Shown: piece after piece, positions 6,054 through 10,484 of the stretch
Position numbering within the stretch: the first letter of the stretch is position 1
Layout: each line of letters starts with the position of its first letter
Assembly: GCF_009741925.1 (NCBI RefSeq)
Contig: NZ_WPCC01000033.1
Coordinates: forward strand, 1-34,831
Source of the DNA: Natronomonas sp. CBA1123
Lineage (GTDB): Archaea; Halobacteriota; Halobacteria; Halobacteriales; Haloarculaceae
Length of the DNA: 34,831 nt
Reading direction: 5' to 3'
Program-made: the position numbers and the translations under genes
The notes under the pieces: generated by a model
Databases searched by the model: none
What the model was told of the DNA's origin: nothing
The model's input: the letters and a program-made list of their open reading frames with translations, nothing else

Positions 6054-8921
6054 ATGCCGACTGCGACGCTCCGTTCGACCCGAATCCTGCTCGTCGGGGA
6101 GGCCGACTGGGTCGAGACGGTCGCCGACGCGTTGACCGCCCACACCGACGCGGTCGTCGAGCGGGCCGCCACGGCCGCGGCGGCGCTCGAAACCGTTCGA
6201 AACGAATCGGTCGAGTGTCTCCTCAGCGAGTACGTACTGCCGGAGTCGACCGGCGTGGAGTTGCTCCGCTCGGTTCGGGCCGAAACCGAGACGCTCCCGG
6301 TGATACTCGCGACGGCTTCGGGAAGCGAAGCCGTCGCCGCGGACGCAATCGCCGCCGGCGTCACCGACTACATCGCCCTCGATGGACGGCACGTCGACAC
6401 CGACGCCCTACTCGACCGCATCGAACGCAGCGTCGACGCCGCCCGAGAAACGAGGACCCGACGGGACCGCGCGAGGCAGTTCGACGCCATTTTCGAGGAC
6501 AGCCGGACGGCCACGTGGGTACTCGACCCGGACGGCACTCTCAGTCGGATGAACGAAACCGCTCGCGAGATGGTCGAAACAGGCGTCGAAGACGCCATCG
6601 GCGAGCCGTTCTGGGCGCTCCCGTGGGGGCCGGCGTCGGCGGAGACACGGGCCGACGTGCGCCGAATCGTCGAGACGGCGATGGACGGCACCTTCGGCAA
6701 CGCGGTCGTCACCGGCGCCGCGGACGAAACCGAGCGCGTCGTCGACCTCTCGGCCCGCCCCGTTCGCGACGACCGCGGCGGTATCGTCTCCATCGTCGTC
6801 GAAGCCGTCGACATCACCGAACGGGTCGACCTCGAACGCGACCTCCGGCAGTCCGAGGAACTCCACCGGGTAACGCTCAACAACATGACGGACACGGTGT
6901 TGATAACCGACGAGTCCGGCGAGTACACCTACGTCTGTCCGAACGTGCACTTCATCTTCGGCTACACGGTCGAGGAAATCCGTGAGTTGGGGACGATAGC
7001 GGAACTGCTCGGTCCGGACCTCTTCGACCGCGAGGAACTCGCCGAGGAGGGCGTGTTGAAGAACATCGAGTGTACCGCCACCGACAAGGCCGGACGGGAA
7101 CACACCCTGCTGGTCAACGTCAGGGAAGTGTCGATTCAGGACGGAACGCTCCTCTACAGCTGTCGGGACATCACGAAACGGAAGCAACGCGAGGAGGCGC
7201 TGGCGACGCTCCAGGGGACGGCCCGGGAGTTCCTGTACGCCGAAACCCACCGGGAAATCGCCCAGCACGTCGTCGACGACACCGCGAGCGTCCTCGACGT
7301 CGACGCGAGCGCCGTCTACCTGTTCGACGCCGACGACAACGACCTCGACCCGGTGGTCCACTCCGCCGAGATGGAGCGGCTGAACGGGCCGCTGCGAGCG
7401 GTCCACGCCAACGACGGCGGGTTGACGAGTTACAGTTTCGTCGAGAACGAACCGCTGTTTTTCGACGACGTCCACGAGTCCGACCGACTCGAAAACCGTG
7501 CGACGGACCTCCGGAGCGCGGCGTTCATCCCGCTCGGCAACCACGGCGTGTTCCTCGCGGGCTCGGAGGAAGTCGGTGCCTTCGACGACGTGACGCGCGA
7601 ACTCGCCGATTTGCTCGCGGCGACGGCCGAGGCCGCACTCGACCGGGTGACCCGTGAGAGTCGCCTCCGCGAGCAGGACCGCGAACTCCAACACCGGAAC
7701 GACCAACTGACGGCGCTGAACCGAATCAACGAGACGATTCGCGAAATCGACCAGGCGCTCGTCGAGGCCGAGACACGCGAAGAAATCGACCACACGGTGT
7801 GTGAACTGCTCACCGACGACGACCGCTTTGCCTTCGCGTGGGTCGGCGCCGTCGACCCCCGAACCGACACGATAGAGCCGCAGGCGTGGGCCGGCGACGA
7901 ACAGGGGTATCTCGACAGTCGCACGTTCCACGTCGACGAGGCGACCGGCGAACCCGTCGGACGGGCGGCGGCCACGCGGGAAGTGACGTTGGTGTCGAAC
8001 GTCGCCGCGCGACTCCGGGAGGAGGCGTGGCGAAAGGACGCGCTGTCGCGGGATTACCTCTCGGTGTTGAGCATCCCGCTTTCGTACAACGAACTCACCT
8101 ACGGCGTCCTGACGGTGTACGCGCGGACGCAGAACGCCTTCGAGGGCACCTTGCGGACGGTCATCGCGGAACTCGGCGAGACGATTGCGGCGGCGATAAG
8201 CGCAATCGAGCGGAAGAACGCGCTGCTCACCACCTCGATGACGCGAGTCGAGTTGTCCATCGACGACCAGCGGTTCGTCCTCTCCCGACTGGCCGCGGAG
8301 GCCGACTGTACGCTCTCCTATCAGGGCGGTATCCAACAGACCGCCGAGGGGAGTTACGTCTTCGTCACCGTCGAGGACACCCCCATCGACGTCGTCGAGA
8401 CGGCCGCACGGGGGCTTCACTCCATCGAGACGGTCCACCGAATCAGCGCCGACAGCGCCGGTGGCGTCCTCCGACTCGGCCTGTCGAGTCCGTTCCTCGC
8501 AATCGAGTTGGCCGACCACGGCGCGGTGTTGCGGAGCGTCTCGGCCGACCCGACGACGACGACGCTCGTCGTCGACATCCCAGAGAGCATCGACGTGCGA
8601 CACATCACGGACCTCGTCCGTGAGTCGTTCGACGACGTTCGACTACAGTCGAAACAGACGTTCGACCGCTCGACGGACCGGAACCTGTACTCGCGAGTCT
8701 TCGACCGCCTGACCGACCGACAACTCGAAGTGGTGCAGACGGCCTACTACAGCGGCTTCTTCGACACCCCCCGCGAGAGCACCGGCGAGGACGTCGCGGC
8801 GACGCTCGGCATCTCCTCGACGGCGTTCTACAACCACATCCGGGCCGTCCAACGGACGCTGTTCGAATCGCTGTTCGACGACATCGGCGTTCCAGCGGCC
8901 CAATCGGCAGTAGAGGGTTGA
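6054..8921 (+). CDS. Receiver-PAS-PAS-GAF-GAF-HTH regulator of the bacterio-opsin activator (Bat) type
   Basis: A 955-residue cytoplasmic sensor-regulator. Domains in order: receiver-like (about 8-118); PAS (about 138-260, DPDGTLSRMNETAREM); PAS (about 272-380, with NVHFIFGYTVEEIRELG); GAF (about 385-530); a short coiled coil; a second GAF (about 565-705); a Bat-type ligand/regulatory domain (about 720-870); and HTH_10 (about 890-945, LTDRQLEVVQTAYYSGFFDTP). HTH_10 proteins regulate transcription in haloarchaea; Bat itself senses light and oxygen through PAS and GAF domains. The receiver is degenerate: the usual phospho-aspartate is Glu59 (SEYVLP) and the conserved lysine is absent, so it probably does not take part in normal phosphotransfer. 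There is no histidine kinase domain. Its own gene or the downstream gdhB operon are plausible targets. Confidence 0.88.
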   Translation: MPTATLRSTRILLVGEADWVETVADALTAHTDAVVERAATAAAALETVRNESVECLLSEYVLPESTGVELLRSVRAETETLPVILATASGSEAVAADAIAAGVTDYIALDGRHVDTDALLDRIERSVDAARETRTRRDRARQFDAIFEDSRTATWVLDPDGTLSRMNETAREMVETGVEDAIGEPFWALPWGPASAETRADVRRIVETAMDGTFGNAVVTGAADETERVVDLSARPVRDDRGGIVSIVVEAVDITERVDLERDLRQSEELHRVTLNNMTDTVLITDESGEYTYVCPNVHFIFGYTVEEIRELGTIAELLGPDLFDREELAEEGVLKNIECTATDKAGREHTLLVNVREVSIQDGTLLYSCRDITKRKQREEALATLQGTAREFLYAETHREIAQHVVDDTASVLDVDASAVYLFDADDNDLDPVVHSAEMERLNGPLRAVHANDGGLTSYSFVENEPLFFDDVHESDRLENRATDLRSAAFIPLGNHGVFLAGSEEVGAFDDVTRELADLLAATAEAALDRVTRESRLREQDRELQHRNDQLTALNRINETIREIDQALVEAETREEIDHTVCELLTDDDRFAFAWVGAVDPRTDTIEPQAWAGDEQGYLDSRTFHVDEATGEPVGRAAATREVTLVSNVAARLREEAWRKDALSRDYLSVLSIPLSYNELTYGVLTVYARTQNAFEGTLRTVIAELGETIAAAISAIERKNALLTTSMTRVELSIDDQRFVLSRLAAEADCTLSYQGGIQQTAEGSYVFVTVEDTPIDVVETAARGLHSIETVHRISADSAGGVLRLGLSSPFLAIELADHGAVLRSVSADPTTTTLVVDIPESIDVRHITDLVRESFDDVRLQSKQTFDRSTDRNLYSRVFDRLTDRQLEVVQTAYYSGFFDTPRESTGEDVAATLGISSTAFYNHIRAVQRTLFESLFDDIGVPAAQSAVEG

Positions 8922-8962
8922 CTATCCAACCCCCGATACCCCAGAAGGTTCGATAGCCAACC
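8917..8962. promoter_or_regulatory. Pair of 16-base half-palindromic elements in inverted orientation, 30 bases apart
   Basis: GGTTGACTATCCAACC (8917-8932) and GGTTCGATAGCCAACC (8947-8962). The reverse complement of the first matches the second at 14 of 16 positions. Centre-to-centre spacing is 30 bases, about three helical turns, and the pair ends 12 bases before the TATA element of the zinc-ribbon/gdhB operon. The first also forms a GGGTTG/CAACCC hairpin around the stop codon of the regulator gene, so a terminator role is an alternative. Confidence 0.45.
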
Positions 8963-8974
8963 GCGGAATATTCC

Positions 8975-8980
8975 CTTATA
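8975..8980 (+). promoter_or_regulatory. TATA-like element of the zinc-ribbon/gdhB operon
   Basis: CTTATA in an AT-rich stretch. Initiation would be near 9004, about 33 bases before the ATG at 9037. Confidence 0.4.
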
Positions 8981-9036
8981 CACCTATTACCCACATCCAG
9001 AGCGCAATCGGTTCGCGCGACAGTGTTCCTGACACC

Positions 9037-9180
9037 ATGCGAGACAAAATCCCAACCCCGAACGCCGAACGCCGGTACGAATGCTTCGAATGTGGAACCG
9101 TCGTGGTCTCCGCGGAGAGCCCCGGCTCCTGTCCCGAGTGTGGCGGTGACCTCCGGAACCGCGGTACACCCATGGAGTGA
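9037..9180 (+). CDS. Rubrerythrin-like zinc-ribbon miniprotein
   Basis: A 47-residue protein with two Cys-x2-Cys knuckles (CFECG and CPECG, 16 residues apart), the arrangement of a rubredoxin/rubrerythrin-like zinc ribbon that binds one Zn or Fe. It ends with NRGTPME. It is too short for standard ORF cut-offs but its composition and motifs are clear. Its stop is two bases from the ATG of glutamate dehydrogenase, so the two are translated from one message. Such miniproteins accompany gdhB in many haloarchaea, as far as I recall. The function is unknown; it may bind metal or assist a partner protein. Confidence 0.8.
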
Positions 9181-9182
9181 GA

Positions 9183-10484
9183 ATGGCTTCTAGTACGACC
9201 CCGAGTGACGACTCCGAAGAGACGACAGCGGAGTCGTCCGAACCCGAAAGCGCACTGGAGACCGCTCGCCGGCAACTCGAATACGCCGCCGAGTACGTCG
9301 ACATCGACCCGAGCATCGTCGAACGGCTCAGACATCCCAAGAAGGTCCACGAGGTTACGGTCCCCATCGAACGGGACGACGGCTCCGTGGAGGTGTTCAC
9401 GGGGTATCGAGCCCAACACGACAGCGTCAGAGGCCCGTACAAGGGCGGGCTTCGGTATCACCCCGACGTGACCAGAGACGAGTCCGCGGGTCTCGCGATG
9501 TGGATGACCTGGAAGTGCGCCGTCATGGACCTCCCGTTCGGCGGTGCGAAGGGGGGCATCGCCGTCGACCCCAAAGGGTTGAGCGACGAGGAGAAAGAAC
9601 GGCTCACCCGCCGGTTCGCCCAGGAGATGCGACCGGCCATCGGCCCGACGCTCGACATTCCCGCCCCCGACATGGGGACGGACCCCCAGACGATGGCGTG
9701 GCTGATGGACGCCTACTCGATGCAGGAAGGCGAGACGATTCCCGGTGTGGTGACCGGCAAGCCGCCGATAGTCGGCGGCAGCGAGGGGCGAGACGAGGCG
9801 CCCGGCCGGAGCGTCGCCATCATCGCCCGAGAGGTAATCGACTACTACGATAAGGACATCAAGGAGACCTCCGTCGCCGTCCAGGGGTACGGAAGCGTCG
9901 GCGCCAACGCCGCGCGACTCCTCGACGACTGGGGGGCGAACGTCGTCGCCGTCAGCGACGTGAACGGCGGCGTCTACGACACGAACGGGCTGGACACGCG
10001 GTCGATTCCCTCCCACCACGAGGAACACGAGGGCGTGCTACGGCACGACGCCCCCGAGACGGTCACGAACGACGAACTGCTGGAGTTGGACGTCGACGTG
10101 TTGATTCCGGCAGCTATCGGCAACGTCCTCACCGAGTCCAACGCCGACGACATTCAGGCGGACATCATCGTCGAGGGCGCAAACGGGCCGACCACCATCG
10201 CCGCCGACGCGATTTTCGCCGAACGCGGCATTCCCGTCATCCCGGACATCGTCGCCAACGCCGGTGGTGTCACCGTGAGCTACTTCGAGTGGCTTCAGGA
10301 CATCAACCGCCGGTCGTGGTCGCTCGAACGCGTCAACGAGGAACTCGAAACGGAGATGGTCGAAGCCTGGAACACCATCCGCGAGACGTTCGAATCCCGA
10401 GACGTGACCTGGCGTGAGGCGACCTACATCGTCGCCCTCACGCGTATCGCGGCCGCCCACGAGGCGCGCGGCCTCTGGCCGTAA
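9183..10484 (+). CDS. gdhB: Glutamate dehydrogenase (Glu/Leu/Phe/Val dehydrogenase family)
   Basis: A 433-residue, full-length hexameric-type glutamate dehydrogenase. It interconverts glutamate and 2-oxoglutarate plus ammonia with NAD(P). Visible motifs are the substrate region [13 protein letters not shown], the catalytic lysine motif PFGGAKGGI (about residue 120), the catalytic aspartate region [14 protein letters not shown], the dinucleotide-binding [13 protein letters not shown] (about residue 236), and EGANGPTT near the C-terminal domain. The ATG at 9183 is taken over an in-frame GTG at 9177 because it follows the stop of the zinc-ribbon gene directly. The symbol follows the haloarchaeal paralogue usually found with that miniprotein; haloarchaea carry several gdh genes, so the letter is less certain than the enzyme. 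Confidence 0.9.

Follow-up and report, generated by a model that had tools for sequence, protein, structure and literature searches.

A pair of imperfect 16-bp dyads sits directly in front of the promoter shared by a zinc-ribbon gene and the glutamate dehydrogenase gene gdhB in Natronomonas sp. CBA1123. The two dyads probably form one local operator (a probability of roughly 80%) for the Bat-type regulator with an HTH_10 domain that is encoded just upstream, and through them this regulator would act on the zinc-ribbon and gdhB genes. The same pair recurs in many haloarchaea where the regulator gene is present, and the dyads are for this reason very probably the regulator's own putative sites.

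The dyads and their surroundings

The window is the whole stretch of DNA that was analysed, 34,831 nucleotides in length. The features of interest are the following:

6054..8921, + strand: Bat-type regulator, 955 aa, with receiver-like, PAS, GAF, BAT and HTH_10 domains (Pfam; orthologues); presumed binder of the dyads
8916..8931, no strand: putative operator dyad 1, GGTTGACTATCCAACC (sequence and matrix; pair conserved)
8947..8962, no strand: putative operator dyad 2, GGTTCGATAGCCAACC (sequence and matrix; pair conserved)
8963..8981, + strand: presumed BRE region and TATA box of the zinc-ribbon–gdhB promoter, the latter being CTTATAC at 8975-8981 (sequence; aligned and conserved in relatives)
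9005..9036, limits approximate, + strand: leader with a stem-loop, a weak counterpart of the stem kept elsewhere (window fold and stem counts)
9037..9180, + strand: zinc-ribbon microprotein, 47 aa, DUF7129 / rubrerythrin-like (constant neighbour)
9183..10484, + strand: glutamate dehydrogenase GdhB (NF041398, 794 bits against a cut-off of 620)

Each dyad has the form GGTTN8AACC with a central TA. Dyad 1 overlaps the last codon and the stop of the regulator gene (TGA, 8919-8921). From start to start the dyads are 31 bp apart, with a gap of 15 bases between them. This is about three helical turns, which places both on the same face of the DNA.

An earlier, sequence-only reading had noted two elements matching at 14 of 16 positions in opposite orientation and ending 12 bases before the TATA element. 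Both figures are correct: the reverse complement of dyad 1 agrees with dyad 2 at 14 of 16 positions (12 of 16 in direct orientation, counted by eye), and 12 bases separate the end of dyad 2 from CTTATAC. Its start at 8917 was one base off, since dyad 1 begins at 8916. Its spacing of 30 bases has to be replaced by 31, while the placement on one face stands.

The regulator has the domain make-up of a Bat-type protein, a C-terminal HTH_10 domain together with a BAT domain and a GAF/PAS sensor part (PF04967 at 65 bits, PF15915 at 120 bits, GAF and PAS over cut-off). The genome of the window holds 37 HTH_10 matches. The closely related genome of Natronomonas gomsonensis has a regulator that is 97% identical. 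In the receiver-like domain the phosphoacceptor aspartate is not conserved: the window has Glu, and the residue varies among 13 aligned orthologues (position set by eye), with Asp retained at the expected place in L007. The second PAS domain is highly conserved, and C295, H299 and C370 are invariant across the same 13. By analogy with Bat, one might guess that the signal is redox or oxygen. The zinc-ribbon protein carries the motifs CxxCG and CPxCG.

Conservation across haloarchaea

The locus set consists of the best 80 of 175 relatives from a search with a regulator profile, all haloarchaeal by title. These loci are related, so counts across the 80 are not counts of independent events. A pair was scored if it matched at 13 or more of 16 positions, taking the best pair per locus at a spacing of 30-32 (31±1 bp).

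The sequence-only reading had suggested looking for the elements in relatives with the same gene order, and there they are: 59 of 80 loci have a pair in the zinc-ribbon promoter, against 4 of 4000 simulated flanks. A pair upstream of the regulator gene is found in 37 of 80, and one in either flank in 67 of 80. These span 29 of 34 genus labels, Haloferax and Haloarcula included (four of the 34 labels are unnamed isolates or a MAG). The 13 loci without a pair in either flank mostly reach a score of 12. Three Natronomonas keep the elements with one or two changes, while one spacer has diverged. The window itself has no pair upstream of its regulator.

The spacing of 31 stands out when all spacings from 17 to 60 are scanned. 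On the zinc-ribbon side 53 of 80 loci have a pair at 31, with 16 at 30, 13 at 32 and at most 8 elsewhere. Upstream of the regulator the peak is again at 31 (33/80), followed by 9 at 32 and at most 5 elsewhere. A control stretch of 260 bases within the regulator gene yielded no pairs.

Given that dyad 1 runs into the regulator's stop codon in the window, one could read the dyads as a structural signal, for example a terminator of the regulator gene, or as a product of chance. This is hardly credible. Chance does not fit the simulated flanks. The distance is fixed to the zinc-ribbon start and not to the stop codon: the pair start ranges from -9 to +105 relative to the latter (setting aside one exception, L110), whereas 64 of 69 pairs with a score of at least 12 end 67-77 nt before the zinc-ribbon ATG. 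Pairs also occur upstream of the regulator gene. Chance and terminator were ruled out on these three grounds.

A zinc-ribbon gene adjoins the regulator on its downstream side at 79 of 80 loci; the one locus without it, L145, breaks off about 200 bases past the stop codon. For gdhB the number is 68 of 80. The link to glutamate metabolism that the sequence-only reading had raised as possible is therefore usual but not universal, and the constant target is the zinc-ribbon gene.

Rarity in the window and the genome

The single-element pattern of the earlier reading, at up to 3 mismatches, has 6 matches in the window against 1.88 expected, 4 of which are the two dyads counted on both strands. The pair pattern at up to 3 mismatches matches once, with 0 mismatches, against 0.05 expected. 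A matrix was also built from 166 elements of other loci, with N. gomsonensis excluded. It places the two dyads first and second within the window. Singly, at 19.6 and 18.7 bits, they do not go beyond simulation, where the best single in 100 simulated windows reached 20.5. As a pair they score 38.3 bits; the next pair in the window has 1.0, and the best simulated pair 10.9.

Many random occurrences would have spoken against a specific site. Pairs are not spread in this way: in the 3.45-Mb genome the pair of the window is the sole one with fewer than 3 mismatches, with 11 others at 3, and 0 for a reversed control. Single elements with one mismatch do occur, at 40 places where the reversed pattern has 19; beside 35 of these 40, on inspection, there is no second element comparable to that of the window. 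Loci L037 and L038 contain, in another part of the locus, 13/16 pairs with a spacing of 30, and the matrix gives pairs at spacing 31 in L255 (15.9 bits) and L043 (11.0 bits). A search of viral contigs for the operator gave no match.

The pair follows the regulator

Searching 293 genomes of the order with the DNA pattern only, and allowing at most 1 mismatch, gave 41 places in 39 genomes, and 5 for a reversed control. Loci were inspected for 30 of the 41 places. Leaving out the window, 26 of 29 adjoin the Bat-type regulator or a paralogue: 22 an orthologue at 62-72% identity, with the place directly downstream of the orthologue in 16 cases and upstream in 6, and 4 a paralogue at 33-41%. No HTH_10 match is near L048 or L051.

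In locus L050 the pair separates two divergent ORFs, and a weak HTH_10-like match lies about 1 kb off. It shares this pair, GGTTAACATGTGAACA / GGTTCACATATCAACC, with G119:C3:95752 in another genome of the same genus.

A survey of GdhB approached the question from the other side. In 60 genomes, 52 genes exceed the family cut-off, 28 away from the regulator and 24 beside it. Within 450 nt of the 28, no pair reaches 13 (the highest score is 12), not even at the 12 genes that are preceded by a zinc ribbon. One gene of this group, L161, lies about 1.2 kb from a 74-residue stretch that matches the regulator at 42%. Among 20 tested loci of the 24 beside the regulator, 12 have the pair, three of these being the window and two near relatives. 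The 8 without it mainly have regulators below about 55% identity, including the six most diverged. With 0 of 28 against 12 of 20, it is the regulator that the pair accompanies, not gdhB.

This also bears on who binds. Binding by the Bat protein is deduced, and two promoters of one locus could be used by any local co-regulator; a regulator encoded elsewhere might thus bind the pair, with the Bat gene linked for other reasons. Such an arrangement is improbable. Presence of the pair tracks the Bat gene, gdhB genes with and without the regulator coexist within several of the same genomes, and a variant of the pair accompanies a paralogous HTH_10 regulator. In most of 66 extracted sequences the clade's recognition helix reads SPxAFYxHxRxVQRKLF, and it differs from that of the other HTH_10 proteins compared. 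The idea first proposed from the sequence, that the adjacent Bat-type regulator would act through these elements, is thus supported by conservation, by the rarity of pairs in the genome and by co-occurrence with the regulator.

Other HTH_10 regulators

At paralogues L073-L075, as in the window, two GGTTN8AACC dyads with a spacing of 31 bp lie in the stretch that separates the regulator from the small gene downstream of it; L060 resembles this more loosely. They differ in having the core GGTTAACTGTATAACC, and a HalOD1 gene downstream instead of the zinc ribbon. Pairs of dyads at 31 bp are in all seen at paralogues L073-L075, L202, L222 and L060, with the HalOD1 gene following in L073-L075 and L060.

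A scan for tandem dyads of any sequence covered 60 other HTH_10 loci; coding periodicity overwhelmed it, and 31 did not emerge as a peak. When the specific arms were required, 31-bp pairs turned up at two of 40 multi-domain HTH_10 loci: L202 and L222, the latter identical in place to L025, each with a pair of the GTTAACTG type. None appeared at spacings 30-32 in 19 short HTH_10 loci. L243 was left out of this comparison. Since most other HTH_10 loci are without a pair, the rule is not general to HTH_10. From sequence comparison, the putative pair rule is claimed for the Bat-type regulator clade and one paralogue type.

Leader stem, small ORF and plasmids

Leaders of the zinc-ribbon gene (L076-L155; around 9005-9036 in the window) share a stem GAGTGC...GCACTC with compensating changes. 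On chosen columns 394 of 439 cells are paired, where 1000 shuffles reach at most 383. Where the regulator is present, 57 of 79 leaders carry the pattern GAG..CTC, against 20 of 1580 shuffles. It is in 0 of 12 zinc-ribbon leaders without the regulator, the start codons there being set mechanically. RNAalifold, given the gappy alignment of these leaders, predicted no structure, and the version of the stem in the window is divergent.

In about two dozen of 80 loci, among them L078, L079, L084 and L088 and excluding the window, the end of a short ORF of about 29-31 aa overlaps the start of the regulator (TAATG). Its ATG is a few bases past the second dyad, and the peptides are alike (QQQNW..RIGTE).

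In L080, L103 and L117, plasmids by title, the regulator, dyad pair, zinc ribbon and gdhB are found together, and on that account the unit may move as a module.

Promoter layout and proposed mechanism

In the proposed mechanism, each 16-bp dyad would probably take one regulator dimer. Two dimers would then sit three turns apart on the same face, adjoining BRE and TATA. A signal received via the PAS and GAF domains would let them help recruit TBP and TFB, which would switch on the zinc-ribbon–gdhB transcript. Elsewhere, the second pair in the regulator's own upstream region probably serves self-control, which would be repression in those layouts whose sites lie on either side of the TATA position and stop 0-4 nt short of the first ATG.

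The two promoters are laid out differently. In the zinc-ribbon promoter both dyads are upstream of the presumed BRE/TATA, and judging by the inner bases an inverted pair fits better in 34 of 51 loci and a direct one in 8. In the regulator's own upstream region the direct fit is ahead of the inverted one, by 17 to 10 of 33. Here 18 of the 37 pairs stop exactly 4 nt short of an ATG, another 6 directly before one, and a stretch like TCTTTG or CTTTTAT is often found between the dyads. Haloarchaeal transcripts are often leaderless, so these sites, if bound, would block that promoter. The layouts suggest activation of zinc ribbon and gdhB together with self-repression of the regulator. The Halorubrum/Halolamina group has a different layout upstream of the regulator, which is at odds with self-repression.

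The same binder could work with the opposite sign, repressing zinc ribbon and gdhB until a signal frees the promoter. The sign cannot be read from sequence, and as the dyads adjoin the presumed BRE, a bound protein could hinder TFB. Repression is nevertheless unlikely: archaeal activators, Bat included, usually act upstream of BRE/TATA, which is where both dyads are, and the layout at the regulator's own promoter is another one.

A wider joint reading is possible, though less likely than not. At least two HTH_10 clades would share a modular operator grammar in which 16-bp dyads come in pairs, at a distance of three turns, and each clade has a core of its own; layout would set the sign. Mostly inverted pairs upstream of BRE/TATA may activate zinc ribbon and gdhB, and pairs around the regulator's own TATA, more often direct, may repress the regulator. 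The co-expressed microprotein may be a Brz-like partner, a small zinc finger of the CPxCG type that would control the neighbouring gene jointly with the Bat-type protein, or may bind its own leader stem-loop as feedback.

Comparison with known systems

The bop UAS consensus is ACCNNACTAGTTNGG. The dyads are not this element: at up to 3 mismatches it has 18 matches in the window against 16.6 expected, none at 8916-8962. The regulator does resemble Bat of the Halobacterium bop regulon in type (GAF, PAS, BAT, HTH_10), and both have the site beside the core promoter. The window differs in its two dyads 31 bp apart, its receiver-like domain and its zinc-ribbon and gdhB targets. The system would work like Bat on its UAS, within the same protein family, but with a separate operator sequence.

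Bat is said to act also on its own gene (PMC1885257), and in H. salinarum small zinc-finger genes are reported beside bat, boa2 and boa4 (PMC2253796, PMC3184054). A regulator with a small zinc finger is thus a known association. For Haloferax mediterranei, two papers describe Bat-like regulators in haloarchaea and a semi-palindromic denitrification promoter motif, CGAAYATDKTYG (PMC10062603, PMC11218638). NarO and this motif are similar to our case in those two respects. The motif differs in being a single one of 12 bp with another sequence, and the source paper leaves its regulator unidentified. At up to 2 mismatches it has 25 matches in the window against 29 expected, none at 8916-8962, and was rejected. 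An account of the operator or of the spacing rule was not found in the literature searched, mostly outside subscription papers.

Significance

Haloarchaea have numerous HTH_10 regulators, and to our knowledge the binding site is known for very few of them. The result offers a putative operator at the level of single bases, a probable regulator, its targets and a rule for the spacing that is seen in 29 of the 34 genus labels. Genetics is possible in Haloferax and Haloarcula, which makes direct tests easy there. In H. salinarum the gdhB transcript is reported to rise on entering stationary phase (PMC2880973), and that gene does not necessarily belong to this module. The finding would also connect a sensor of the Bat type with a zinc-ribbon microprotein and, in most loci, with GdhB.
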